Of a stretch of 64,000 bases of DNA, positions 3,338 through 19,805 are shown in pieces. The notes under the pieces were generated by a model. That model was not told where the DNA came from, searched no databases, and was given only the letters and a program-made list of their open reading frames with translations. How positions within the stretch are numbered: position 1 is the first letter of the stretch; every line of letters starts with the position of its first letter. Location of the stretch: assembly GCA_958295725.1 (NCBI GenBank), contig OY282368.1:2440001-2504000 (forward strand), given 5' to 3'. The translations under genes and the position numbers were made by a program. This DNA comes from an uncultured Alphaproteobacteria bacterium. GTDB lineage: Bacteria; Pseudomonadota; Alphaproteobacteria; UBA2966.

Positions 3338-4117
3338 GTGGCGAAGAAAAAGAAGGTTCTGGTCATCGTTCCGTTCCCGATGACGGAGGAGCAGCTCGGG
3401 TTCCGGCAACAGCAGCATGCCTCGCTCGATTTCGGCCCCGACATCGAGTTCGACTACCGGCCGGTCCGCGCGGCGGGCGGCAATCTCGTGAGCCCCTACG
3501 ATTGGTGCATCGGCGACGTCGTCGTTCTCGAAGCGGGCCTCTCGGCCCAGGAGGAGGGCTACGACGCGGTGTGCGTCGACACCGTGAGCGACTCCGGCGT
3601 CGCCGCGTTGAGGACCATTCTCGATATCCCCGTGATCGGTCCGGGGCGGGCGTCGTTCCTGCTCGCCATGCTGCTCGGCGACAAGTTCGGCGTGCTGGCG
3701 ATGTGGGAGCGCTGGTCCGGGCTCTACAAGAAGACGCTGGAGGAGCTCGGTATCGGCCACAAGTTCGTGGGCGTGCACAGCATCGACGCCACGGTGGACA
3801 ACCGGAACCTGCTCAGCGGCAAGGAGGAGGAGACCTTCGGGCAGCTGGAGGAGGGCTGCTGGGCCCTGATCAACGACCGCGGCGCCGACGTCATCTGCCT
3901 CGGGTCGACGTCGATGCATCAGGCCCACGTCTACCTTTCCGAGCGGATACCCGCGCCCATCGTCAATCCGGGCCCGGTGTCCTACAAGCTCGCCGAGGCC
4001 GTGCTCGGACTCGGCCTGGCGCACAGCCGCCAGTACTACAAGCCGCCCGTCGTGCGGGCCGACGAGACGCTCCGCGCCATGCTCGACGGCGCGGTCGAGG
4101 CGCGGAAGGACCGGTAG
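3338..4117 (+). CDS. Asp/Glu/hydantoin racemase-family protein, copy 1
   Basis: The 259-residue protein has the Asp/Glu racemase superfamily layout: an N-terminal strand VLVIVPFPM, then AVCVDTVSDSG, and VICLGSTSMHQAHVY in the C-terminal half. Racemases of this family use two cysteines. Here the first remains (C in AVCVDT) but the second position, usually GC in LLGCAGM, reads GS. Enzymes with one cysteine include decarboxylases and isomerases, so racemase activity should not be assumed. It lies 43 bases before a paralogue, probably in one operon. GGGAGG precedes the GTG at 3338. Substrate unknown. Confidence 0.75.
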   Translation: MAKKKKVLVIVPFPMTEEQLGFRQQQHASLDFGPDIEFDYRPVRAAGGNLVSPYDWCIGDVVVLEAGLSAQEEGYDAVCVDTVSDSGVAALRTILDIPVIGPGRASFLLAMLLGDKFGVLAMWERWSGLYKKTLEELGIGHKFVGVHSIDATVDNRNLLSGKEEETFGQLEEGCWALINDRGADVICLGSTSMHQAHVYLSERIPAPIVNPGPVSYKLAEAVLGLGLAHSRQYYKPPVVRADETLRAMLDGAVEARKDR

Positions 4118-4160: not shown

Positions 4161-4925
4161 ATGACCAAGGCCCTGGTTCTGGTGCCCTTCGCGCTCGACG
4201 AGAGCGGCATCGCCAACCGGCGCGCCCAGCTCGACCACGTCCGCCTCGGCCCGGACATCGAGTTCGACTTCCGCGGCGTCACGGCGGGTCCGAAGAGCTA
4301 CATGAGCCCGCACGATTTCGTGCTCATGGACATGGCGATCTTCGAGGCCGGGATGAGCGCCCAGGACGAGGGTTACGACGCCGTCTGCATCGACACCATG
4401 AGCGATTCGGGCCTCGACGCGCTCCGGTCGGTGCTCGACATTCCGGTGATCGCGCCGGGGAAAGCGGCGATGCTGTTCTGCCTGACGCTCGGCGAGAAGT
4501 TCTCCATCCTCTGTCAGTGGGACTACGCCGTCGCGCGGACCACCAAGATGATCCGGGCGCTCGGGCTCGAGGACTTCTGCGCCGCCGTCGTGAACTACGA
4601 CGCGCCGCCGGACTACGCCGGCCTGCTCGACGGCAAGGAGGACACGATCTTCCCCAGGATGAAGGCGGCGTGCGAGGAGGCGATGGCGGCGGGCGCGGAC
4701 GTGGTCTGCCTGGGATCGACGACCATGCACCAGGCGGCCGAGTACCTGGCCGGGAACCTGCCCATCCCCGTCGTCAATCCGGGTCCGCTGACCTACAAGC
4801 TCGTCGAGTCGGTTCTCGACCTCGGACTGGCGCACAGCCGCAAGGCCTATCCGAAGCCCCTCGACCCGCGGCCCGGCATGATCCACGCCATGCTCGAGGC
4901 CGGAAAGGAGGCGCCGGGCGAGTAG
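4161..4925 (+). CDS. Asp/Glu/hydantoin racemase-family protein, copy 2
   Basis: This 254-residue paralogue of the preceding gene shares PDIEFDFRGV, SAQDEGYDAVCIDTMSDSG, VVCLGSTTMHQAAEYL and PVVNPGPLTYKL. Like copy 1 it keeps the first cysteine and has serine where the second catalytic cysteine is expected. AAAGGAGAGGAGCC before the ATG is a strong ribosome binding site. Two diverged copies in tandem suggest either a heteromeric enzyme or two related substrates; that is inference. Substrate unknown. Confidence 0.75.
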   Translation: MTKALVLVPFALDESGIANRRAQLDHVRLGPDIEFDFRGVTAGPKSYMSPHDFVLMDMAIFEAGMSAQDEGYDAVCIDTMSDSGLDALRSVLDIPVIAPGKAAMLFCLTLGEKFSILCQWDYAVARTTKMIRALGLEDFCAAVVNYDAPPDYAGLLDGKEDTIFPRMKAACEEAMAAGADVVCLGSTTMHQAAEYLAGNLPIPVVNPGPLTYKLVESVLDLGLAHSRKAYPKPLDPRPGMIHAMLEAGKEAPGE

Positions 4926-4981
4926 CCCGGGGTTCCCCGGACGGTCTCGGGGACCGTCGTCGAATCGAGGAGAGCGGCCGG

Positions 4982-7282
4982 ATGAAACGAACCGGGACGA
5001 TCTCGGCGGTCTTCGTGGCGGCGCTGACATGCGCCTTTGCCGCCGGTTGCGGAGGAGGCGGCGGCGGAGCCGGCCCGCAAGAGGCGGCGCACAAAATGGA
5101 ACCGGATGCGGAAGAGGCGGACCGACAAGCGGAGGAGGCGGCGCTCCAGGCGGCGCTGGAAGACATAGACGGCCTGGAGCTGACCCCGAACCTGTCGGCG
5201 GTCGGCGTCCGCGCGGCCTACAAGAACGTCGTCCGCGCGATGGGCGGCGCCACGCGCTTCGGCGCCGGCGTCACCATCGGCTTCATCGACACCGGCATCG
5301 ATCTGGATCACCCCGCGTTCTCCGACGGCGTCAGGACCGTGACCGAGGAGGTACTGGAAACGGGGGCGGGCGATCCGGCCAGCAGTTTCTCCGAAGGCGG
5401 CTCTTCCCACGGGACGGCGGTGGCCAGCGTCGCCGCCGGGGCCGCCCGCGACACGAGCGCCGGGCGGCGGCAGGGCGTGGCCCCCGGCGCCAACGTCAGG
5501 ATGTTCGCGATTACGCTGGGGTCGGGAACCGAGCCGTACAAGGAAACGACCCTGGAGGGTCTGAAAACGTTTTCGGACAGTTTCGGGGAGTACTTGCGCC
5601 GCGCCCTCGAACAGGACGTCGACGTCCTGAACATGAGTCTCAGCGTCAATGGGACCATCGATCACTATTCGAAGGATGACCTGCGGGACCGCATGGCGAC
5701 GCTCGTCCGCGAGGCGGCGCAGTCGGGGGTCGTGGACAAGACGATCCTCGTCTGGGCCGCCGGCAACGAGAACGACAGGAAATGCACGAGCGGCATGAGT
5801 TGCGTCGCCAGGAAAGTCGATGCCCGGTCGGTGACCGTATCCTCGGGACTCCCGCTGCGGTTCCCGGAGCTGCGCGGCCACTGGGTCGCGGCGGCGGCGG
5901 TGGACGGCGACGGCGCCATCGCCGATTTCTCCAACCGCTGCGGGAGCGCCGCCGATTTCTGCATCGTCGCCCCCGGCGTCGCCGTCCCGATCGCCTACTA
6001 TGGGATTAATAATAGAGGCGACCTCGTCCAAGGCTGGGGGACGGGCGGCGGAACGTCGTTCGCCGCGCCCACGGTGGCGGGCGGCCTCGCGGTCATGAAG
6101 CAGCTCTTCCGCGGCCAGCTCGCCAGCACGGCGCTGGTTACCCGGCTGTTCGCGACCGCCGACAAGACCGGCCGCTACGCCGACCGGAGCGTCTACGGCC
6201 AGGGGCTGATGGACCTCGGGGCGGCGACGGCGCCGGTGGGCGCGATGACGGTCGCCGGCGGCGCCTCGGTCGCGGCCGGCGGCGCCGGCCTGCGGGAGAC
6301 CGGCCTCGCGCTCGGGCCGGCGTTCGGCGACGGGCTCGCGGCGTCGCTGACGGGCCGGGAAATCGCCGCCTTCGATTCTCTGGGCGCGCCGTTCTGGTTC
6401 GACCTCGGGGGCCTCGTCGCCGCCACGGACGCGCGCCCCTTCCTGACCCGCCGGCTCCGCGCGCTGACGGCGCCGCCCGCGCGTCGCGCCGCTTCGACGC
6501 CCGGCTGGACGGCGCTGACCTCCGGCACCGACGGGGCCGGACTCCCGCGGATCGGCCTGCTCGGGGCCGGGACGGACGCGCCCCCGGGCGGCCATCTCGC
6601 ACTCGCCGGCACCGTCCTCGCCGCCGCCTTCGATCCCGGCGCGGGGCTCGCCGCGACCGCCTTCACCAACCGGGGCCTGAGCGACCGGCCGCCGGTTTCG
6701 GGCGGCGCGCTGTCGTGGCGTCCAGCGGGCGCGCCGGCGGGCCTCACGGCCGGCTGGCTGACGGAGGGCGCGGAACTGCTCGGGACCGGCGCGGCCGGCG
6801 CCTTCGGAAGGCTGGCGGCCGACACGGCGTTCGTCGGGATCGACGCCGGCTTCGCCGCCGGTCCCTGGTCGGTCTCCGCCGCCGGCGAGGTCGGAGCGGC
6901 GACGCCGCGCCACCGGCGCGGCCGCCTCGTCGCCGGCCTCTCGCCCCTGACGACGAGCGCCTTCACGCTCGACGCGACGCGGCGCCTCGCGGACGGCGGC
7001 GCCCTGCGCCTCGCGTTGACGCAGCCGCTACGGGTCGAGAACGGCCACGCGACGCTCTCCGTTCCCGTCGGCCGCACGCACGGCGGCGCCGTCCTGCGAC
7101 GGTCGGTCGCCGCCGGCCTGGAGCCGTCGGGCCGCCAGATCGACGTCACGGCGCAATGGCGACGGCCGTTCGCGGCGGGCGGCGACGCCGCGCTCGGCGT
7201 CGCCTGGACGCACGCCCCCGGTCACGCGGCCGGCGCGAAGCCGGACCTCGCCGTCATGGCGGGATGGCGGCTCGCCTTCTGA
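4982..7282 (+). CDS. Lipidated S8 (subtilisin-like) serine protease with autotransporter-like C-terminus
   Basis: The 766-residue protein starts with a type II signal peptide: a hydrophobic run ending FAAGC, with C23 the likely lipidated residue, then a run of glycines. Residues about 70-400 form a subtilase domain with the triad D103 (FIDTGIDLDH), H143 (SSHGTAVASV) and S360 (GGGTSFAAPT). An Ala/Gly-rich stretch follows, ending in a C-terminal region with alternating strands and a terminal aromatic (GWRLAF), as in autotransporter barrels. Neisseria NalP has the same combination of lipobox, S8 domain and barrel. The 3' end overlaps the convergent toxin gene by 29 bases. GAGGAGAGCGGCCGG precedes the ATG. 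Confidence 0.82.
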   Translation: MKRTGTISAVFVAALTCAFAAGCGGGGGGAGPQEAAHKMEPDAEEADRQAEEAALQAALEDIDGLELTPNLSAVGVRAAYKNVVRAMGGATRFGAGVTIGFIDTGIDLDHPAFSDGVRTVTEEVLETGAGDPASSFSEGGSSHGTAVASVAAGAARDTSAGRRQGVAPGANVRMFAITLGSGTEPYKETTLEGLKTFSDSFGEYLRRALEQDVDVLNMSLSVNGTIDHYSKDDLRDRMATLVREAAQSGVVDKTILVWAAGNENDRKCTSGMSCVARKVDARSVTVSSGLPLRFPELRGHWVAAAAVDGDGAIADFSNRCGSAADFCIVAPGVAVPIAYYGINNRGDLVQGWGTGGGTSFAAPTVAGGLAVMKQLFRGQLASTALVTRLFATADKTGRYADRSVYGQGLMDLGAATAPVGAMTVAGGASVAAGGAGLRETGLALGPAFGDGLAASLTGREIAAFDSLGAPFWFDLGGLVAATDARPFLTRRLRALTAPPARRAASTPGWTALTSGTDGAGLPRIGLLGAGTDAPPGGHLALAGTVLAAAFDPGAGLAATAFTNRGLSDRPPVSGGALSWRPAGAPAGLTAGWLTEGAELLGTGAAGAFGRLAADTAFVGIDAGFAAGPWSVSAAGEVGAATPRHRRGRLVAGLSPLTTSAFTLDATRRLADGGALRLALTQPLRVENGHATLSVPVGRTHGGAVLRRSVAAGLEPSGRQIDVTAQWRRPFAAGGDAALGVAWTHAPGHAAGAKPDLAVMAGWRLAF

Positions 7283-8188: not shown

Positions 8189-9079
8189 TCACCGGGCGCG
8201 TTCCCGTTCGGGCAGCGCGTACCGTTCCTCGAGCGCGGCGACCTCGTTCATCCCCATGAGGTTCAGCATCTCGTCGAAGGTGGGCAGGTCGGCCTCCATG
8301 TCGGCCCAGGTCCGCTTCTCCTTGAGACGGTCGAGGCAGCCCAGCGCCGCGCGGATCGTCGACAGCAGGAGCAGGCCGGGATAGATCGCGAGCTTGAACC
8401 CGAGCGCCCCCAGCTCCCCGGCGGACAACAGCGGCGTCTTTCGGCTCGACGCCAGGTTGGCGACCTGGGGGACGCCGAAGGCGCTCCCGATCCGTGCCAT
8501 CTGGCGCCTGTCCGTCGGCGCCTCGACGAAGAGCATGTCGGCGCCGGCCTCTTCGTACAGGGCGGCGCGGGCGAGCGCCGCGTCGAACCCTTCCACCGCG
8601 ATGGCGTCGGTGCGGGCGATGACGACGAAATCGGGATCCGTCCTCGCGTCGACCGCCGCCTTGACCTTGGCCACCATCTCTTCCGCCGGAACGAGCTGCT
8701 TGCCGACGAAGTGGCCGCAGCGCTTCGGGATGACCTGGTCCTCGATATGGACGGCGGCGACTCCGGCCCGTTCGTAGCTCCGGATCGCGCGGCGGACGTT
8801 CAGCGGGCCGCCGTAGCCGTTGTCGCAATCGGCGATGACGGGCAGCCCCGAGGCGTCCACGACGCGGGCCGCGTTATCGACCATCTCCGTCATGGTCAGC
8901 AGGCCGACGTCGGGCATGCCGAGGCGCACGGCCGTCGTCCCGGCGCCGGTCATGTAGACGGCCGGGAACCCCTTGTGGGCGACGAGCCGGGCGTAGAAGG
9001 GATCCGGCGCCCCTGGCGCCATGATGACGTCCGGTCCGGCCAGCAACCGGCGAAAGGCGGCGGCAGCACTGTCTGTCAC
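8189..9079 (-). CDS. Isocitrate lyase/PEP mutase-family enzyme
   Basis: The 296-residue protein belongs to the ICL/PEPM superfamily of C-C or P-C bond enzymes. It shows VYMTGAGTTAVRLGMPDVGLLT, the metal-binding segment IADCDNGYGG, and the lid motif EDQVIPKRCGH with the cysteine typical of lyases in this family (for example 2-methylisocitrate lyase or oxaloacetate decarboxylase-like members). ARTDA and FVEAPTD follow. I chose the GTG at 9079, with GGGAG 9 bases upstream, because relatives begin just before RRLLAGPDVIMAPG. Divergent from the hydrolase at 9195. Exact substrate not determinable. Confidence 0.82.
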   Translation of the reverse strand: MTDSAAAAFRRLLAGPDVIMAPGAPDPFYARLVAHKGFPAVYMTGAGTTAVRLGMPDVGLLTMTEMVDNAARVVDASGLPVIADCDNGYGGPLNVRRAIRSYERAGVAAVHIEDQVIPKRCGHFVGKQLVPAEEMVAKVKAAVDARTDPDFVVIARTDAIAVEGFDAALARAALYEEAGADMLFVEAPTDRRQMARIGSAFGVPQVANLASSRKTPLLSAGELGALGFKLAIYPGLLLLSTIRAALGCLDRLKEKRTWADMEADLPTFDEMLNLMGMNEVAALEERYALPERERAR

Positions 9080-9194: not shown

Positions 9195-9884
9195 ATGGAA
9201 CTCTCGGACAAGACAGCCCGCCGGATGTGGGAGGAGCTCAAGGCCGATCCGAAGCCGCGTTTCGGTTTCGGCAGGCGGCTGATGGTCGTGAACGTCGACG
9301 TCCAGAAATCCTTCACGCTGGAGGACGAATACACGTCCGCCTATTCGACGCACCCCGGGCAGATCGACTACATCAACGAGATCTCCGGCATCGCCCGGTC
9401 GAAGAACTTGCCCGTCGTGTGGACCTACGTCGCCTACATGGAGAACGCCGACGACTGCGGCGTCTGGGGAACCCGGAACGATCACGAGGGCGCCCTGCAG
9501 AACATCAAGGTCGGCTCGCGCAAGGCGGAACTCGACGACCGCTGCGATATCGACCGCGACAACGACATCGTCATCAACAAACGGGGCGCGTCGGCATTCT
9601 TCCAGACGCACCTGCCGTCGCTCTGCGTGTGGTACCGGACCGACACCGTCATCGTGACGGGCGGATCGACCTCCGGCTGCGTGCGCGCGACGGTGGTGGA
9701 CAGCCTTCAGAGCGGCTATCGCACCGTCGTCCCCGAGGAGTGCACCTCGGACCGGCACGAGAGCCCGCACTTCGCCAACCTCTACGACATGGCGGCGAAG
9801 TACGCCGACGTGATACCGGCCCAGGAGGTGATCGACCACCTCAACGAATACGCGACGGCGAACGACCGGGGAGGAAGGCTGTGA
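9195..9884 (+). CDS. Isochorismatase-family cysteine hydrolase, copy 1
   Basis: The 229-residue product has the cysteine-hydrolase triad of the isochorismatase-like family: D35 in VVNVDVQKSF, K129 in INKRGASAFF and C162 in GGSTSGCVRAT. N-carbamoylsarcosine and related ureido or amide hydrolases share this layout. Its stop overlaps the GTG of the next gene (GTGA), so the two are coupled. A second copy stands at 11769 at the far end of the same cassette. Substrate unknown; the context of PuuE-like deacetylases suggests a nitrogenous ring or ureide compound (inference). Confidence 0.83.
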   Translation: MELSDKTARRMWEELKADPKPRFGFGRRLMVVNVDVQKSFTLEDEYTSAYSTHPGQIDYINEISGIARSKNLPVVWTYVAYMENADDCGVWGTRNDHEGALQNIKVGSRKAELDDRCDIDRDNDIVINKRGASAFFQTHLPSLCVWYRTDTVIVTGGSTSGCVRATVVDSLQSGYRTVVPEECTSDRHESPHFANLYDMAAKYADVIPAQEVIDHLNEYATANDRGGRL

Positions 9885-10795
9885 CACTCAGCGATCCCGG
9901 CATCTACGCGTATTCGCCGTACAACGACCGGCCCAGGATCACCTGGCCGAACGGCGCCCGCGTCGCCTTCTGGGTGGCGCCCAATATCGAATTCTACGAG
10001 ACCCATCCACCCGCCAACCCGGTTCGCCAGGACATGTCGAGGCCGGCGCCGGACGTCGCCTTCTACGCTCACCGCGACTACGGCAACCGGGTCGGCGTCT
10101 GGCGCATGATGGAGGCGATGGACCGTTACGGCGTGCGCGGCAGCGTGTCGCTCAACGTGGCCGTCTGCGACCATCACCCCGAGATCATCGAGGCGTGCGT
10201 CGAGCGCGGCTGGGAGCTGTTCTCCCACGGCGTCTACAACACCCGCTACCAGTACGGCATGAGCGAGGCGCAGCACCGCGCGCTCATCGAGGACGCGATC
10301 GAGACCATCGACAAGGCGTCCGGCCAGAAGCTGGCCGGCTGGCTGTCGCCGGCGTTGAGCAACACGGAGCAGACGCTCGACCTGCTGGCGGAGTACGGGG
10401 TGCTGTACACCTGCGATCTCTTCCACGACGACCAGCCGCAGCCCGTCAAGGTCGAGCGGGGCCGTCTGATCAGCATCCCCTATTCGCTGGAGATGAACGA
10501 CATCGTGGTCTACCACCAGATCAACTCGAGCCCGCCGCGCCAGTACACCGAGGTGATCAAGCGGCAGTTCGACCAGCTCTACGAGGAAGGGGCGGAGAAC
10601 GGCACCGTCATGTGCATCCCGCTGCATCCGTTCCTCGTCGGCCAGCCGCATCGGGTCGGTCCGTTCGCCGAGGCGCTCGAATACATCACCGGCCACGACG
10701 ACGTCTGGGTGACGACGGGACGCGAGATCGCCGAGTACTACTTCGAACACCACTACGACGCCGTCGTCGCGGCCCAGTCCGCCGCCGGGGAGTGA
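9881..10795 (+). CDS. Polysaccharide deacetylase-family (PuuE-like) hydrolase, copy 1
   Basis: The 304-residue protein resembles the PuuE/allantoinase branch of the polysaccharide deacetylase family: VAFWVAPNIEFYE, HRDYGNRVGVWRMMEAMDRYGVRGSVSLN, GWELFSHGVYNTRY, a central GWLSPALSNTEQTLDLLAEYG and a final HPFLVGQPHRVGPF. The second histidine expected in a canonical metal site (H-x3-H) is absent after SHG, as in metal-independent PuuE. It starts with GTG at 9881, overlapping the previous stop, with GGGGAGGAAGGCT upstream. A paralogue follows 4 bases after its stop. Probably hydrolyses a cyclic amide or ureide; substrate unknown. Confidence 0.8.
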   Translation: MTLSDPGIYAYSPYNDRPRITWPNGARVAFWVAPNIEFYETHPPANPVRQDMSRPAPDVAFYAHRDYGNRVGVWRMMEAMDRYGVRGSVSLNVAVCDHHPEIIEACVERGWELFSHGVYNTRYQYGMSEAQHRALIEDAIETIDKASGQKLAGWLSPALSNTEQTLDLLAEYGVLYTCDLFHDDQPQPVKVERGRLISIPYSLEMNDIVVYHQINSSPPRQYTEVIKRQFDQLYEEGAENGTVMCIPLHPFLVGQPHRVGPFAEALEYITGHDDVWVTTGREIAEYYFEHHYDAVVAAQSAAGE

Positions 10796-10799
10796 CGCC

Positions 10800-11723
10800 A
10801 TGAGCCTGCCCGACGATTATCTCGTGTACCCGATCCGCGGCTACGGGATGGACCACGACCGCTACGGCTGGGATATCCTGTTCCGCAGAAAGCCCGTCGA
10901 ATGGCCGGGCGGCGCGCGCGTGGCGCTGTGGATCACGCCGCTGCTGCAATGGTTCCCGATGGACATGGAGACCAGGCCGGTGGCGCCGCCCGGCGGATTC
11001 AACCGGCCCTATCCCGACTACCGGAACTATTCCCACCGCGACTACAGCCTGCGCGTCGGCATCTTCCGCTTCTTCAGGCTCTTCGACGAGCTCGGGATCA
11101 AGGCGTCGGCGGCGATGAATTCCGCCGTCGGCGAGCGGTACCCGGTCGTCGTCGACGAGATCAACCGGCGGAGCTGGGAGGTCATCGCCCACGGCGCGCA
11201 CATGGGCCGTATGCACTACGGGGGCATGGACGAGAAGCTGGAGGCCGAGCGCGTCGAGAGCTGCATCCGGTCGCTGCGCGAGACCACGGGCCAGCCGGTC
11301 CGGGGCTGGTTGTCCATCGGCAAGTCCGAATCGGACAACACCCCCGACCTTCTGGCGGCGAACGGGATCGAGTACCAGTGCGACTGGTGCAACGACGACA
11401 TGCCGTACCGCTTCAGGACCAGGAACGGCGACCTCTTCGCCATGCCCCACACGGTCGAGCTCGACGACCGGGAGGCGCTGCTGCGCTTCCATCACCGCGA
11501 GGCGGAGTTCGTGCAGCAGATCAAGGACCAGTTCGACGTGCTCCACGCCGAGGCCGAGCGGTACGGCGGGCGGATCCTGTCGATCTCCCTGCATCCGTGG
11601 GTGATGGGACATCCCTACCGGATCGGCTATCTCCGGGAGGCCCTGGAGTACGTTCTCGGACACGACGGCGTCTGGCCCGCCACGGGAGCGGAGATTCTCG
11701 ACGCCTGCAAGGAACAGGCGTAG
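10800..11723 (+). CDS. Polysaccharide deacetylase-family (PuuE-like) hydrolase, copy 2
   Basis: This 307-residue paralogue of the preceding gene carries PGGARVALWITPLLQWFPMD, HRDYSLRVGIFRFFRLFDELGIKASAAMN, VIAHGAHMGRMHYGGM, RGWLSIGKSESDNTPDLLAANG and ISLHPWVMGHPYRIGYL. The two copies have diverged throughout, so this is not a recent duplication. It lies in tight operon spacing with copy 1 and before the second cysteine hydrolase. In the family such proteins act on allantoin-like or N-acetyl substrates. The specific reaction cannot be read from the sequence. Confidence 0.8.
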   Translation: MSLPDDYLVYPIRGYGMDHDRYGWDILFRRKPVEWPGGARVALWITPLLQWFPMDMETRPVAPPGGFNRPYPDYRNYSHRDYSLRVGIFRFFRLFDELGIKASAAMNSAVGERYPVVVDEINRRSWEVIAHGAHMGRMHYGGMDEKLEAERVESCIRSLRETTGQPVRGWLSIGKSESDNTPDLLAANGIEYQCDWCNDDMPYRFRTRNGDLFAMPHTVELDDREALLRFHHREAEFVQQIKDQFDVLHAEAERYGGRILSISLHPWVMGHPYRIGYLREALEYVLGHDGVWPATGAEILDACKEQA

Positions 11724-11768
11724 GCGGCGATCCACGAACGAGGTCGAATCGGCAGGAAAGGCGGAACC

Positions 11769-12446
11769 GTGGAACTCTCGAACAAGACGGCCCGGCAGAT
11801 GTACGAGGACCTGAAGTCGGCGCCGCCGCGGCGCAAGTTCGGCTTCGGCCGCAAGCCCATCATCGTCAACGTCGACGTGCAGAGCGCCTTCACGCTGGAG
11901 GAGGAATACGACTCCGCCTATTCCACCGATCCCGGACAGATGGAGTACATCAACGAGATCTGCGGGATCGCGCGGTCGAAGGGACTGCCGGTCGCGTGGT
12001 GCTACGTCGCCTACACGGAGAACGGACACGATTGCGGCGTGCGCGGCACCCGGAGCGACGGCCCGACCGCCCTGCAGAACATAAAGATCGGATCGAGGAT
12101 GGCCGAGCTCGACCCCCGGCTGACCGTCGACAGGGGCCGCGACGTGATCTATCGCAAGGTCGGCGCGTCGGCCTTCTTCCAGACGCACCTGCCGTCGCTC
12201 TGCGTCTGGTACGGCGTCGACACGGTGATCGTCACCGGCGGCTCGACCTCGGGGTGCATCCGCTCGACGGTGCTCGACAGCGTGCAGCACGGCTACCGCA
12301 CCATCGTGCCCGAGGAGTGCGTCGCCGACGTGCACGAGAGCCCCCACTTCCAGAACCTTTACGACATGGCCAAGAAGTACGCCGACGTCGTCCCCGTCGC
12401 CGAGGTCGCCGACTACCTCGACGGCTACGTCCCCGCGAACGGGTAG
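11769..12446 (+). CDS. Isochorismatase-family cysteine hydrolase, copy 2
   Basis: This 225-residue paralogue of the gene at 9195 shares the N-terminus MELSNKTARQMYEDLK, the triad D36 (IVNVDVQSAF), K130 (IYRKVGASAFF) and C163 (GGSTSGCIRST), and the C-terminal HESPHFQNLYDMAKKYADVV. The start is GTG, aligned with the ATG of copy 1, with CAGGAAAGGCGG upstream. It closes the hydrolase-deacetylase-deacetylase-hydrolase cassette. Substrate unknown. Confidence 0.83.
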   Translation: MELSNKTARQMYEDLKSAPPRRKFGFGRKPIIVNVDVQSAFTLEEEYDSAYSTDPGQMEYINEICGIARSKGLPVAWCYVAYTENGHDCGVRGTRSDGPTALQNIKIGSRMAELDPRLTVDRGRDVIYRKVGASAFFQTHLPSLCVWYGVDTVIVTGGSTSGCIRSTVLDSVQHGYRTIVPEECVADVHESPHFQNLYDMAKKYADVVPVAEVADYLDGYVPANG

Positions 12447-12475
12447 CCGGGTTCGCCGCGCCCCGGCAGGCGGCG

Positions 12476-13423
12476 CTACAGGGAGAGCACGTCCTTCGCG
12501 TATATCTCCATCTTCTCGAGCGCCTCGCCCAGCGTCGGGCTCAGGAAGTTGAAGTTCAGCAAACCGACGCCCAACCCGCGAAAGTATTCGACGTCGCCGG
12601 CGATCTCCTCGGGCGCGCCCATGAACAGTCGCCGGCCGCCGCCGTCGGCGGTCGTCCCCGTGACGCCGGCCCAGTTGGCCCAGAACGCCAGCACGATCGT
12701 CGCCGGGTCACGTCCTTTCTTCTCGGCCATCGCGCGGAGCCGGTCGACGTTGGCCTTGTAGCGCTCGCGCGTGTCCATCCGGTTCCTGGGGTTCGCGCCG
12801 AGGGGATACCAGCCGTCGCCCAACTCGACGGCCCGCCGAAGCGCGGGGCCGCTCTCGCCGCCGACGAATATCGGGGGATGCGGCTTCTGGACCGGCTTGG
12901 GCGCGAAGACGACGTCCGAGAAACTCGCGTAATCGCCCCGCATGGAGGGGCTCTCGCGCGTCCACAGCTCCTTGAAGGCGCGGATGTACTCGTCGGTGAC
13001 CTTGCCACGCTCAGCGTGCGGGGGCGCGCCGAGGGCCTCGAACTCCTCCTTCATCCAGCCGGCGCCGACGCCGACCGCGAGGCGGCCGCCGGACAGCACG
13101 TCGATGGTCGCGAGCATCTTCGCCGTCAACACGGCCGGGCGGTGGGGGACGACGAGCACGGAGGTGAGGAGCCGCGGCCTTGTCGTGACCGCGGCCGCCC
13201 AGGTCAGGACCGTGAGCTGGTCGAGACAGTCGCCCGTTTCGCCGCCGGGCATCTCGCCGGTCTCCGAGTACGGGTACTCGAAGGCGTAGGCGCGCGGGAT
13301 GACGAGGTGGTCGGGAACGGTGAGATAGTGGTATCCGAGCCGCTCGCCGCGCTCGGCCATCGCGCGGACGCCTTCCGGGTTGGCGAGCGGGCCGCGCGTC
13401 GGCAAACCGAATCCGAATTGCAT
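12476..13423 (-). CDS. LLM-class (luciferase-like) oxidoreductase
   Basis: The 315-residue protein has the luciferase-like monooxygenase TIM-barrel pattern of F420/FMN-dependent oxidoreductases: MQFGFGLPTRGPLANPEG, YLTVPDHLVIP, the flavin-region signature DVLSGGRLAVGVGAGWMKEE, PPIFVGGESGPALRRAVELGDGWYP. GGGAGG sits 6 bases before the ATG. It faces the hydrolase cassette convergently, with about 30 bases between stops. Whether it uses F420 or FMN cannot be told from sequence alone. Confidence 0.83.
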   Translation of the reverse strand: MQFGFGLPTRGPLANPEGVRAMAERGERLGYHYLTVPDHLVIPRAYAFEYPYSETGEMPGGETGDCLDQLTVLTWAAAVTTRPRLLTSVLVVPHRPAVLTAKMLATIDVLSGGRLAVGVGAGWMKEEFEALGAPPHAERGKVTDEYIRAFKELWTRESPSMRGDYASFSDVVFAPKPVQKPHPPIFVGGESGPALRRAVELGDGWYPLGANPRNRMDTRERYKANVDRLRAMAEKKGRDPATIVLAFWANWAGVTGTTADGGGRRLFMGAPEEIAGDVEYFRGLGVGLLNFNFLSPTLGEALEKMEIYAKDVLSL

Positions 13424-13643
13424 GGCGATCCTCCCTGAGCCGATCCAGCGCCAGTCTGCCACCGCGTCCGGAGCGGGGCAAACGCGGCGTGCGCGTGGGA
13501 TGCCCGGGGTCGCCGGGGATCGGGCGATATCGGCGCCGCGTTGAAGCGGCTCTCGCGATCGGGTATCAAGCCGAGTCATGGCGCAGACGCCGGAAGGCAT
13601 CGCGTTTCCTCTCGACCGAACCCGACGCGGCGGGACGACGGCC

Positions 13644-14921
13644 ATGAAGCTGAAGCATGTGGAGATCGAGAACTACCGGGCCATCGAGAAGCTCGACCTG
13701 CCGCTCGATCCCGTCCTGACGGTGCTCCACGGCGCCAACGGGCATGGCAAGACCAGCGTCCTGAGCGCCATCGCGACCGGCCTCGGCAGCATCCCCAGGC
13801 TCTTGCCCGACGTTTCCAGCGTCGGGTTCCTCAGGACCGACCGGCGCGGATCGCGGCCCTTGCGGGTCGGCCTGACGACCGTCGACGGAATTTCATGGGA
13901 ACGGCGGGTGCGGGGAGAACGGAGAAGGATCTCCCGGCAAGACTTGAAGAAAGCGATGGAGGCCATCGTCGAGGCGGACCGGGAAGGCGCCGAACCGCGA
14001 GACCTTCCTATCTTCGCCTTCTACGACACCGACCGCGCGGTATTCGACGCGCCGCATCGACGCCGGGGCTTCAAGACAGAGTTTCCGCGTTACGCGGCGC
14101 TGGAAGGGGCGCTCGCCCTCCGCACCAACTTCAGGGAGTTCTTCAAGTGGTTCTACGCACTGGAGAACGAGGAATTGCGAGAAAAGAACGAACGGCGGAA
14201 CTGGGACTACCGGTTGAAGGAGCTGAATGCCGTCCGCGTGGCGATCGAACGCATGGTTCCCGGAGTCTCCGACCCCCGGATCAGACTCCGGCCCCTGCGG
14301 TTCGCCGTGTCCATGAAGTCGGGAGCCGGCAAGACGGAAGAACTCGCGCTCGACCAGTTGAGCGGGGGTTACCGCATCATGCTGGCGCTCGCCGCAGATC
14401 TCGCCCGGCGCATGGCGCAAGGGAACTCGCATCTCGACGACCCGCTCGAGTCGGAAGCGATCGTGTTGATCGACGAAGCCGACCTGCACCTGCATCCCGC
14501 ATGGCAACAGCGCGTGCTGCCCGACCTGACGAGAACCTTCCCGAATACGCAGTTCATCGTCTCCACCCACAGCCCGCAGGTGCTGACCACCGTGCGCCCC
14601 GAGCAGATTGTCGAAATGTGCCGCGAAGACGGCCGCATCGTCGCCGGACAATCGTCCGCGCCGACCTATGGCGCCGAGGCGGGAAGCGTGCTTGAAGTAA
14701 TCATGGGCGTGAGGGAACGGCCAGCCGCCGAATACAACGAATTCGTAGAGAAACTTGAGGAATACATGCGTCTCGTCGATGACGGCCACGGTCGATCCGA
14801 GGATGCCATGTCGCTCAGGGGCGAACTCGAAAACCTTTCTCCCAGGGATTCGGCGCTCGACGCGGCGGATATGGAGATGGAACGGCAGGAAATCTTCGAA
14901 CGGTTGGGCAAGGCTTCTTGA
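13644..14921 (+). CDS. ptuA: AAA-type ATPase of a Septu-like defence system (PtuA-like)
   Basis: The 425-residue protein is an ABC/OLD-class ATPase without membrane segments: Walker A GANGHGKTS at 30-38, signature LSGGYR at 239-244, Walker B IVLIDEADLHLHP at 273-285 and an H-loop STHSP near 309. FYDTDRAVF near 127 is also seen in PtuA-type proteins. It overlaps the next gene, an HNH nuclease, by four bases (TTGA). This ATPase plus HNH pairing defines type I Septu and the effector of some retrons; no reverse transcriptase is near, so Septu is the better call. I prefer the ATG at 13644; an in-frame ATG at 13578 adds 22 residues. Defence role is inferred from family and pairing. Confidence 0.8.
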   Translation: MKLKHVEIENYRAIEKLDLPLDPVLTVLHGANGHGKTSVLSAIATGLGSIPRLLPDVSSVGFLRTDRRGSRPLRVGLTTVDGISWERRVRGERRRISRQDLKKAMEAIVEADREGAEPRDLPIFAFYDTDRAVFDAPHRRRGFKTEFPRYAALEGALALRTNFREFFKWFYALENEELREKNERRNWDYRLKELNAVRVAIERMVPGVSDPRIRLRPLRFAVSMKSGAGKTEELALDQLSGGYRIMLALAADLARRMAQGNSHLDDPLESEAIVLIDEADLHLHPAWQQRVLPDLTRTFPNTQFIVSTHSPQVLTTVRPEQIVEMCREDGRIVAGQSSAPTYGAEAGSVLEVIMGVRERPAAEYNEFVEKLEEYMRLVDDGHGRSEDAMSLRGELENLSPRDSALDAADMEMERQEIFERLGKAS

Positions 14922-17194: not shown

Positions 17195-17236
17195 GCGAAT
17201 TGCACCGCCACGGAGCTTTGGGTAACGTCGGTCCCG

Positions 17237-17313
17237 GCACCCGTAGCTCAGTTGGATAGAGCGCTGCCCTCCGAAGGCAGAGGTCACAGGTTCGAATCCT
17301 GTCGGGTGCGCCA
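17237..17313 (+). tRNA. tRNA-Arg (anticodon CCG)
   Basis: A full cloverleaf of 77 bases: acceptor GCACCCG/CGGGTGC, D-arm GCTCAGTTGGATAGAGC, anticodon stem CTGCC/GGCAG with loop CTCCGAA (anticodon CCG, reading CGG), T-arm ACAGG-TTCGAAT-CCTGT, discriminator G and encoded CCA at 17311-17313. It stands directly beside the IS-rich ptuAB locus. Confidence 0.96.
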
Positions 17314-17349
17314 CGATCCTCCCGGAGATATCGGGACCCGCGTCGGCGG

Positions 17350-18147
17350 TCAGGCGCCCTTGAACACCGGTTTGCGCTTTTCGTGGAAGGCCTCGACGCC
17401 TTCGCGGAAATCTTCGGACTGCCGCAGCCGCGAGTAGCAATGCCCCTCCGTCTGAATGGCGGCCGACAGAAACATGTCCTCCGTTTCGTTGAGCAGGCGC
17501 TTGGCCGTCCGCTGCGCCAGCGGCGCGAATTCGCGAAGTTCGGCGACAAGCGCGTCCGTGGCCGTCTCCAGCTCGTCGTCCCGCACCACCTCGGTGACGA
17601 TGCCCCAATCGAAAGCCTGCCGGGCGGAGATACGCCGGGAGCGCATGACGATGTCCTTGGTCCGCGCGATGCCGATCATCTTCTGCAGGCGCGCCGACCC
17701 GCCCGATCCCGGGATCTGACCCAGCCGCTGCTCGGGAAGGGCGTAGAGCGCCGTCTCGGAGGCGATGCGGAAGTCGCAAGCCAGAGAGAGCTCGAAGCCG
17801 ACGCCGAAGCAGTAGCCACGATTGGCGGCGACGACGGGCTTCTCGCACCGCGCCGGCGCGGCCATGTCGTCGGCGAGCTTCGAGACGCGCTCGGGCGACG
17901 CCTCCATGAACCCCCGGATGTACCCGCCCGAGGAAAAGTTCGGACCAAGAGCGCGAAGCACGATCACGCGAACCCGGTCGTCGCGGTCGAGCGTCTCGAA
18001 CGCCGTTCGCAGTTCCGGTCGCTGGCTCATGAAGATCGTGTTCATGTCGCCACGGTCGAGGACGATATCGCCGCGTTGCCGTCCGGTGTCGACCTCGACC
18101 GTGAAGCCGTCGAAGGCCTCGCCGCGCGGCTCTTTCGTCGTTTCCAT
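17350..18147 (-). CDS. Enoyl-CoA hydratase/isomerase family protein (crotonase) 1
   Basis: The 265-residue protein has the crotonase fold motifs [10 protein letters not shown] (oxyanion region), [29 protein letters not shown] and [19 protein letters not shown]. The family hydrates or isomerises acyl-CoA double bonds or acts on other acyl-CoAs. It is followed upstream on the same strand by an acyl-CoA ligase and a second crotonase, suggesting one catabolic operon for a carboxylic acid. The exact substrate is not readable. Confidence 0.83.
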
Positions 18148-18182
18148 GATCGACGCCCTTTCCTCCGCTTCGGTCCCCGGTC

Positions 18183-19805
18183 TCACGCCGCCAATACCAT
18201 GTCCAGCAACCGCTTCTTGTCGATCTTGTTGCCGCCGACTCGGGGAAACTCGACCAGTTCGACGAATCGCGCCGGTATCTTGTAGGTCGCGAGGCCGCCC
18301 GACCGCAGGACCTCCGCCAGACCTTCCGTGTCGATCGTCCTGCCGTCCCGCGCCTGCACGAAGGCCCACGGCACCTCGCCGTACTCGGCGTCGGGCACCG
18401 CGACGACGGCGCACTGGAACACATCGGGATGCCTGGCGATCTCCCGCTCGACCTCGATCGGCAGCACCTTGTGCCCGCTTCGGTTGACGACCTCCCTGGA
18501 GCGCCCCAACAGCGTCAACCGTCCGTCACCGTCGAGAACGCCCATGTCCCCGGTCGCGTACCAGCCGTCCGACCAGACGGCCCGCGTAGCCTCGGGGTCG
18601 TTCCAGTAGCCGAGCGCGGCGAAGGGCGCGGAGACCCTGACATGACCGACCTCGCCCGCGGGAAGCTCCGCGCCGCCGTCGTCGTCGATCCGCAGACGGC
18701 AACCCGGAAGCGGCAAGCCGGTGCTTCCGTCGAGCCGCAGCGCCACCGGCTCGTCGACGTCCGCATGCCCGAAACCGGGACACTCCATCGCACCCGAAGC
18801 GACCACCACCCGACAGTCGGTCAGGTCCTCGATACGTCGCGCCGCCTCGAGACCCGCGGCCCCCGTGCCGACCCGCAAGGCCCGTAACGAGCTCAGATCG
18901 AACGACCCGAGGTCTTCCCGGGCGAGGCGGGCGAGGACGACCGGCACCGTGGTCGCGACCGTGATCCTCGCGTCCTCCACCAGCCGCAGCAGGGCGCGCG
19001 CCTCGAACGTCGGGGGAAATACGCAGGCGAAGGGCAATGCACCCGTCATCGTCCATGCCAGCACGCCGGCCGCGCCCGACATCGGCGCGAACATGCCGAC
19101 AATATCGTCCTCCCGCATCCCCAACCGTCCGGCGATGCCGCGGCCGATGCAGATTTGCGCCGCCTCCGGCCATTCGTTGAGCTTGGCGAGGCTACTGGTC
19201 CCGCTGGAGGCGGTGATCAGGGACACCTCGTCGAACCGGAACCGCCGCTCGGCGATCCGGTCGCGGCCGTCGCCGCCCTCGGGCGGCGCTACCAGGTCCG
19301 ACCAGCTCGACCATCCGTCCGGCGGCAACTCCGACGCGAGGGCGACGCGCAGCGTCTTCGTCGATCGGCCGACGCCCGTCCCTTCCAGCCATGTCCTTCG
19401 GCCGTCGTCGTCCATGGAGTCGAGAGCGACGAAGACGGCGCTCGGATCGATCCGCTCGAAGGTGTGGTCGAGCTCCCGCCGGCGCCACTGCATCGGCGCG
19501 AAACAGCCCAGAACGCCAGCCTTCTTGAAGGCGATCCGCAGCACCGTCTCGCGGGTCGACGACGGGATCTGCACGAGCGCCCGGCCGTCGCGGGGGATGC
19601 CGCGAGCGATCAGGTTGGCGGCGATCCGGTCGGTAACCTCGTGGAGCCGCCGCCAAGTGAGCCCGATCTCCCGGTCGCGACAGGCGATCCCGTCGGGAAA
19701 GTCCCGCGCGTAGGCGGCATAGCGGCCGACCATGGTGTCCCGGGACCAGTGGCCGGCGGCGAGACGGGTCTCGACCTTCTCCCGGTCGATCCGGGTCGGC
19801 CGCAT
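18183..19805 (-). CDS. Acyl-CoA synthetase/AMP-dependent ligase (ANL family)
   Basis: The 540-residue enzyme activates a carboxylic acid as acyl-AMP and then as a CoA thioester. It has [17 protein letters not shown] (A7/A8 region), [21 protein letters not shown] and a C-terminal NKIDKKRL with the expected A10 lysine. The A3 phosphate loop reads [17 protein letters not shown] rather than the usual TSGTTGxPK, so this is a divergent member. An ATG at 19823 in frame would add six residues; I chose 19805 because GGGGCGA precedes it. It lies between two crotonase genes on the same strand. Confidence 0.82.

Follow-up and report, generated by a model that had tools for sequence, protein, structure and literature searches.

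What does a cassette in which two hydrolase genes frame two deacetylase-like genes do, and does its symmetry reflect the duplication of a two-enzyme module? The question is raised by a locus of an uncultured alphaproteobacterium (UBA2966 lineage), which lies at positions 9195-12446 of a 64,000-nucleotide stretch of contig OY282368.1 (positions 2,440,001 to 2,504,000; hereafter the window, in whose numbering all coordinates are given). A first-pass annotation made from the sequence alone had described two isochorismatase-like cysteine hydrolases flanking two PuuE-like deacetylases on one strand with a GTGA overlap, and had proposed a duplicated module for ring opening and amide removal. Open reading frames, Pfam domains and gene spacing all agreed with the described layout. 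We report here that the conserved unit is a triad, H-PD1-PD2, found over several phyla, and that the fourth gene of the cassette is a local duplicate of the first, placed at the cassette end.

Gene layout and the triad across genomes

The four open reading frames were confirmed in the order H1, PD1, PD2, H2, all on the plus strand. H1 (9195-9884) encodes an isochorismatase-family cysteine hydrolase resembling maleamate amidase (Ami), with a D35-K129-C162 triad and 4l07/4l08 as best PDB matches by sequence and by fold. PD1 (9881-10795) encodes a PuuE-like protein of NodB fold, the proposed catalytic ring-opening subunit. PD2 (10800-11723) encodes a second protein that is PuuE-like by profile and AlphaFold model, diverged anciently according to the tree and may be the partner subunit. 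H2 (11769-12446) is a lineage-specific duplicate of H1 that retains the catalytic triad and is altered at several otherwise conserved positions. PD1 starts at a GTG (9881) inside the end of H1, so that the GTGA overlap falls at 9881-9884; 4 nt separate PD1 from PD2, and 45 nt separate PD2 from H2, which starts at GTG 11769. Pfam detected the Isochorismatase domain in H1 and H2 (E 1e-25 and 2e-25) and Polysacc_deac_1 in PD1 and PD2 (E 3.5e-9 and 3.5e-4, the latter slightly below the gathering score). Comparison of the window with a near relative, L050, gave dN/dS values of 0.09-0.18 for each of the four genes, and all four are therefore under purifying selection. Scanning the cassette for promoters and terminators returned none above chance, and comparison with PHROGs gave no useful match.

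To place the cassette in context we compared 88 loci that hold a close homologue of H: the window itself, 7 loci on plasmids and 80 genome contigs. The contigs are those that matched H best, which makes the sample a biased one. PD1 stood beside H in 73 of these loci, always in one order. PD2 was present as well in 71, and the remaining two stop at a contig edge. In an even sample of the class (289 genomes), H occurred at 18 places at ≥54% identity outside the window genome, and the PD1-PD2 pair adjoined it at 16 of them (counted by hand). Triads were present in Alpha-, Beta- and Gammaproteobacteria, on one contig each of Actinomycetota and Thermomicrobiota, and on plasmids. By contrast, the full H-PD1-PD2-H2 order, among the 88 loci, was limited to the window and L050. 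In the neighbourhood search suggested by the annotation, the four-gene order is thus hardly shared; independent occurrence in most genomes, named there as refuting, does not apply to three of the four genes.

The two gene pairs also differ in age. At 70% identity H1 and H2 are closer to each other than PD1 and PD2 (36%), so that the two pairs, both described as diverged paralogues, are not equally diverged. A tree built from 38 H proteins joined the H1 and H2 copies of the window and L050 in one clade (support 100/99), indicating that their duplication is lineage-specific. A second tree, built from 40 PD proteins, grouped the triad PD1s together (99/98), separate from the PD2s; a further PD paralogue of the window genome (C1:188043) fell on the PD1 side, via a long branch, and not with PD2. 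Judged from this tree, PD1 and PD2 are two ancient and distinct PuuE-like clades that travel together. A symmetric duplication of a two-enzyme module is not supported, given the H and PD trees and the lack of H2 in the other loci. On the same trees, the symmetric appearance is best read as a late copy of the first gene set behind an old H-PD1-PD2 triad.

A separate doubling was seen in Comamonadaceae-type loci (L077, L096, L098, L115, L118 and similar), where a second PD1-type gene and a second, RutB/BiuH-like isochorismatase gene lie behind the triad. This is an independent doubling of both enzyme types. These loci also carry a racemase-fold gene of the Cys-less kind and genes for a PhyH-type oxygenase and a PrpD-type protein.

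The 15 of 88 loci that have H without PD1 or PD2 were informative in another way. Nine of them (L064, L068, L071, L075, L080, L081, L085, L102 and L106) carry a dihydropyrimidinase/hydantoinase gene beside H; the L075 gene scored above the D-hydantoinase/dihydropyrimidinase cut-off, and the genes of the other eight loci are 92-99% identical to it. In two others, H adjoins a homologue of 2,5-dihydroxypyridine dioxygenase (7cn3, E 5e-67) and an HpaB-type monooxygenase gene, neighbours that would be expected if H acts on maleamate. Since the H-only loci replace PD1-PD2 by a hydantoinase or a dioxygenase, H looks like a second step that follows various ring-opening enzymes.

The paired PuuE-like proteins and the maleamate-amidase-like hydrolases

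PD1 and PD2 both matched the PuuE allantoinase model TIGR03212 best, yet with 141 and 116 bits they remained far below its cut-off of 424.6. The NodB-type PuuE fold was assigned to PD1 from sequence only and to PD2 from an AlphaFold model, whose nearest structure is PuuE allantoinase 3cl6 (Z 32.5 over 283 residues, rmsd 2.5); the first fold match outside the PuuE/HpPgdA group had Z 20.5. PuuE (3cl6, 1z7a) thus shares its fold and the positions of its S-H-G and L-H motifs with PD1, strictly, and with PD2. What sets the triad proteins apart is their score, far under the equivalog cut-off, and their occurrence in tandem as two distinct types. Among the annotated recurrent neighbours of triads, genes of the allantoin pathway were not noticed.

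The two histidines of PD1 at positions common with PuuE, His116 and His249, are kept in 71 of 71 PD1 orthologues; this conservation, together with the NodB motifs, points to a catalytic role. PD2 is more variable. Among 69 orthologues, 37 have Asn and 26 have His at the first position, and 54 have His at the second. PD2 nevertheless has conserved residues of its own (Lys/Arg at 175, Trp196 and Asn198), which indicates specialisation rather than decay. We also considered whether PD2 is a pseudoenzyme; for the window this is unsupported, because its PD2 retains both His131 and His265. The pattern as a whole suggests that PD2 is probably the second subunit of the PD1 enzyme.

Tandem PD1-type/PD2-type pairs were also found in at least nine further loci (L134-L142), with no close H gene in the stretch examined. 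As in triads, the PD1-type members bear a DHDD signature and the PD2-type members DNDD or DNDE. The existence of such pairs outside the triad suggests an undescribed, two-component type of PuuE-like enzyme.

For H, the nearest solved relative by profile was maleamate amidase Ami of P. putida S16 (4l07, E 2.6e-45), an enzyme that works late in the nicotine degradation of this strain (PMC3812094). Fold comparison also placed Ami first (Z 27.8, 197 residues, rmsd 2.5), ahead of N-carbamoylsarcosine amidohydrolase (1nba, Z 26.6), with NicF (3uao, Z 25.4) behind both. Ami therefore leads by both measures, yet N-carbamoylsarcosine amidohydrolase outranks NicF. D35, K129 and C162 are invariant in 86 H relatives, the Cys being preceded by a T159-S160-G161 motif, as in the Ami/NicF triad. 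With Ami and NicF (3ot4/3uao, B. bronchiseptica) H has in common the fold, the D-K-C triad and the TSGCVRA motif; N-carbamoylsarcosine amidohydrolase (1nba, 26st) shares the superfamily and the catalytic triad and is the second-best match only. H proteins scored 27-31 bits against the BiuH and RutB equivalog models, below both cut-offs (370 and 378). H differs from Ami in sequence (~37% identity), in unusual residues at conserved positions of H1 and H2, and in context, since PD1 and PD2 take the place of the dioxygenase and deformylase that come before Ami and NicF. No NicX-type dioxygenase gene lies beside H in the window.

The unusual residues fall into two groups. Gly131, shared by H1 and H2, replaces a Met found in 86 of 86 relatives, Ami likewise having Gly, and Gln137 replaces a Glu found in nearly all relatives; both changes are older than the H1/H2 duplication. 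Other changes are specific to H2 (H1 numbering): W91 to R, R130 to V and K/R187 to V. Position 187 is Arg in H1, Lys or Arg in the family and Val in H2; it is equivalent to Arg202 of N-carbamoylsarcosine amidohydrolase and is Arg in Ami. Arg202 binds substrate in that enzyme, a role that would carry over to H by alignment. A shift of H2 to a second, related substrate is probable in the window lineage.

Lyase-family neighbours and a proposed imide pathway

The PEP-mutase-family gene that the first-pass annotation had noted beside the cassette proved real by Pfam and profile scores. It encodes an isocitrate/methylisocitrate-lyase-family enzyme (8189-9079, minus strand, with an assumed GTG start at 9079) and is divergent from H1, with 115 nt between them. 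It scored 272 bits against the PrpB equivalog TIGR02317 (cut-off 354), and the dimethylmalate lyase 3fa3 was among its matches. Of 18 genomes with a triad, 12 carried a gene of this family no more than 5 kb away from it, against a chance expectation of 0.23 given the 71 such genes that these genomes hold in total (counted by hand from a table). This supports the earlier suggestion that the neighbour takes part. A KRCGH/KKCGH catalytic motif was present in all 23 triad-linked family members, the window enzyme having KRCGH.

Hydratase genes recur near triads as well. LeuC-type genes were found near 23 of 73 triads and PrpD-type genes near 21, and a LeuC, PrpD, lyase or HMG-CoA-lyase-type gene was near 53 of 73 triads but near none of the 15 H-only loci (Fisher value 1e-7, indicative only as the groups differ in taxonomy). 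L041, L043, L108 and L127 have an HMG-CoA-lyase-type gene together with a CoA transferase, possibly an alternative route for splitting an alkylmalate. Such neighbours recall a known system: dimethylmaleate hydratase and 2,3-dimethylmalate lyase end the anaerobic fermentation of nicotinate. A LeuCD-type hydratase and an isocitrate-lyase-family lyase likewise stand beside the triad in other lineages. The triad differs in coupling genes for imide and amide hydrolysis to these functions, and in the window cluster the hydratase is absent.

From the gene content, conservation, co-occurrence, catalytic residues and closest relatives observed here, we infer a substrate, a heteromer and an order of steps. 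PD1 would open the ring of a cyclic imide, for which a substituted maleimide is the likeliest candidate, and so give a half-amide (a substituted maleamate), with PD2 assisting as probable second subunit. H would then strip the amide as ammonia, leaving a substituted maleate. Many lineages have a LeuCD- or PrpD-type hydratase that would turn the maleate into an alkylmalate. The adjacent lyase-family enzyme would cleave this by a retro-aldol reaction, yielding a 2-oxo acid plus a carboxylic acid; alternatively, cleavage would fall to the CoA transferase and the HMG-CoA-lyase-type enzyme. A maleimide is proposed as substrate because H is kin to maleamate amidase and because hydratase and lyase genes are neighbours. 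The general order, PuuE-like ring opening followed by amide removal through an isochorismatase-type cysteine hydrolase, had been anticipated by the annotation and is supported. It also has a parallel in HxnM of Aspergillus nidulans, a cyclic imidase of the PuuE superfamily that is proposed to open 3-hydroxypiperidine-2,6-dione, with an amidase acting next (PMC9304392). HxnM and the cyclic imide hydrolase of P. putida share with the triad the superfamily and the imidase-then-amidase logic (PMC9304392); HxnM is a single gene product, in contrast to the PD1/PD2 pair, and is likened to it by superfamily; its structural relative HpPgdA (3qbu) is matched by PD1 more weakly than PuuE is. We hold it about as likely as not that H-PD1-PD2 is a catabolic unit for a cyclic imide with a five-membered ring, a substituted maleimide being the likeliest, acting via half-amide, maleate, hydration and lyase cleavage.

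Several observations weigh against this proposal. PD1 is nearer to PuuE allantoinase (121 bits) than to the HpPgdA/imidase branch (3qbu, 41 bits), and the nearness of PD1 and PD2 to allantoinase may leave room for a ureide substrate. In the fold comparison of H, N-carbamoylsarcosine amidohydrolase (Z 26.6) comes close behind Ami (Z 27.8). The hydantoinase of nine of the 15 H-only loci is an enzyme that can yield either carbamoyl acids or half-amides. The PD2 of the window, with both His, could be an active enzyme. Finally, no dedicated LeuCD or PrpD was found in the window genome, which has a single LeuC-type protein (54%) and a remote PrpD (26%).

Some of these points would suit a hydantoin or ureide route, made up of a racemase-like protein, a hydantoinase- or allantoinase-like opener (PD1/PD2) and H as N-carbamoyl amidohydrolase. 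The nearest characterised relative of PD1/PD2 and the second-best relative of H are then accounted for, as are the D-hydantoinase/dihydropyrimidinase genes of the nine H-only loci and the hydantoin-racemase-fold genes that occur in the window and close to 20 of the 73 triads. In the window these form a pair that is syntenic in L050, copy a (3338-4117, plus strand; best PDB match 3qvk) and copy b (4161-4925, plus strand), both Pfam Asp_Glu_race. The pair lacks both catalytic Cys, with Thr and Ser in their place, and a role as hydantoin racemase or maleate isomerase was rejected on that ground; the family linked to the triad must, by its residues, do something other than two-Cys racemisation. 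In addition, PD1 and PD2 fall far short of the PuuE equivalog cut-off, H is closest to maleamate amidase, and neighbours of the isocitrate-lyase and LeuCD/PrpD types, suited to alkylmalates, have no evident part in converting a hydantoin to an amino acid. The ureide or hydantoin substrates named in the first-pass annotation are thus less likely, and we hold this route to be doubtful.

Two further explanations concern the enzymes themselves. PD1 and PD2 could be independent ring openers for different substrates, working as PD1-H1 and PD2-H2 pairs with no heteromer. The intact histidines of the window PD2, the differences between H1 and H2 at otherwise conserved positions, and the extra PD1-type gene and second isochorismatase of Comamonadaceae loci would all fit. 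Nearly all other loci, however, have PD2 beside PD1 without a second H, PD2 is retained even though one or both His are missing in many of its orthologues, and nine other loci hold tandem PD1-type/PD2-type pairs, so that we consider independent openers unlikely. The substrate could also be a cyclic imide that is saturated or has six members, or a different N-heterocycle (of succinimide or glutarimide type, HxnM-like), the lyase-family gene then belonging to a later, general acid pathway. This has the HxnM precedent on a piperidine-2,6-dione (PMC9304392) in its favour, and an FAD_binding_2 oxidoreductase family present in nine loci could desaturate the product. Against it, the closest relative of H acts on maleamate, an unsaturated C4 half-amide, and hydratase and lyase neighbours suit an alkylmaleate directly; we rate such a substrate as rather improbable.

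If the substituted-maleimide proposal is carried further, a natural source may be suggested. Oxidation of tetrapyrroles gives alkylmaleimides such as hematinic acid and 2-ethyl-3-methylmaleimide. Hydrolysis and hydration would convert hematinic acid into a homologue of methylisocitrate that is longer by one carbon, a fitting substrate for a PrpB-like lyase, which would release pyruvate and glutarate. That PD1 and PD2 are the two subunits of a PuuE-type imide hydrolase, an architecture not described before and recurring in many tandem gene pairs, and that the triad consumes alkylmaleimides from the breakdown of heme, chlorophyll or bilins is, taken as one claim, a long shot.

Other neighbouring genes and wider meaning

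Downstream of the cassette, convergent with H2, lies a gene for a luciferase-like oxidoreductase of the F420-dependent TIGR03619 class (12476-13645, minus strand; true start probably near 13430). Like the lyase-family gene, this neighbour was correctly recognised earlier: it scored 237 bits against TIGR03619 (cut-off 167) and is conserved in L050 over 12460-13430. Among the compared loci, the luciferase-like cluster was found in the window and L050 only. L050 has two further stretches resembling this gene (17213-18655, ~70% at the DNA level) downstream of its cassette. A subtilase (Peptidase_S8) gene at 4940-7282 of the window separates the racemase-fold pair from the lyase gene; as it is missing from the syntenic block of L050, it was either inserted in the window or lost in L050. 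Past the luciferase-like gene and outside the block conserved in L050, an AAA/SMC-type ATPase open reading frame (Pfam AAA_15, AAA_21) occupies 13578-14921.

The first-pass annotation knew of no characterised pathway with this layout, and we found none in the literature searched. Searches on the triad, the PD1/PD2 pairing, imidases acting on maleimide and bacterial catabolism of hematinic acid returned nothing on this unit, although they covered few subscription journals and an earlier description is possible. The enzyme folds were known already; neither the triad nor the pairing of PD1 with PD2 nor the pathway proposed here turned up in the papers covered.

These results bear on genes well beyond the window. 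Triads carried on chromosomes and plasmids, annotated generically as 'polysaccharide deacetylase' and 'isochorismatase', can now be given a testable chemistry. Should PD1 and PD2 make up a single enzyme, many of the tandem pairs labelled 'polysaccharide deacetylase' in genome databases carry the wrong name and belong to a hydrolase family of two components. Should alkylmaleimides be the substrates, the triad would provide bacteria with a route for the ring compounds left from pigment decay.

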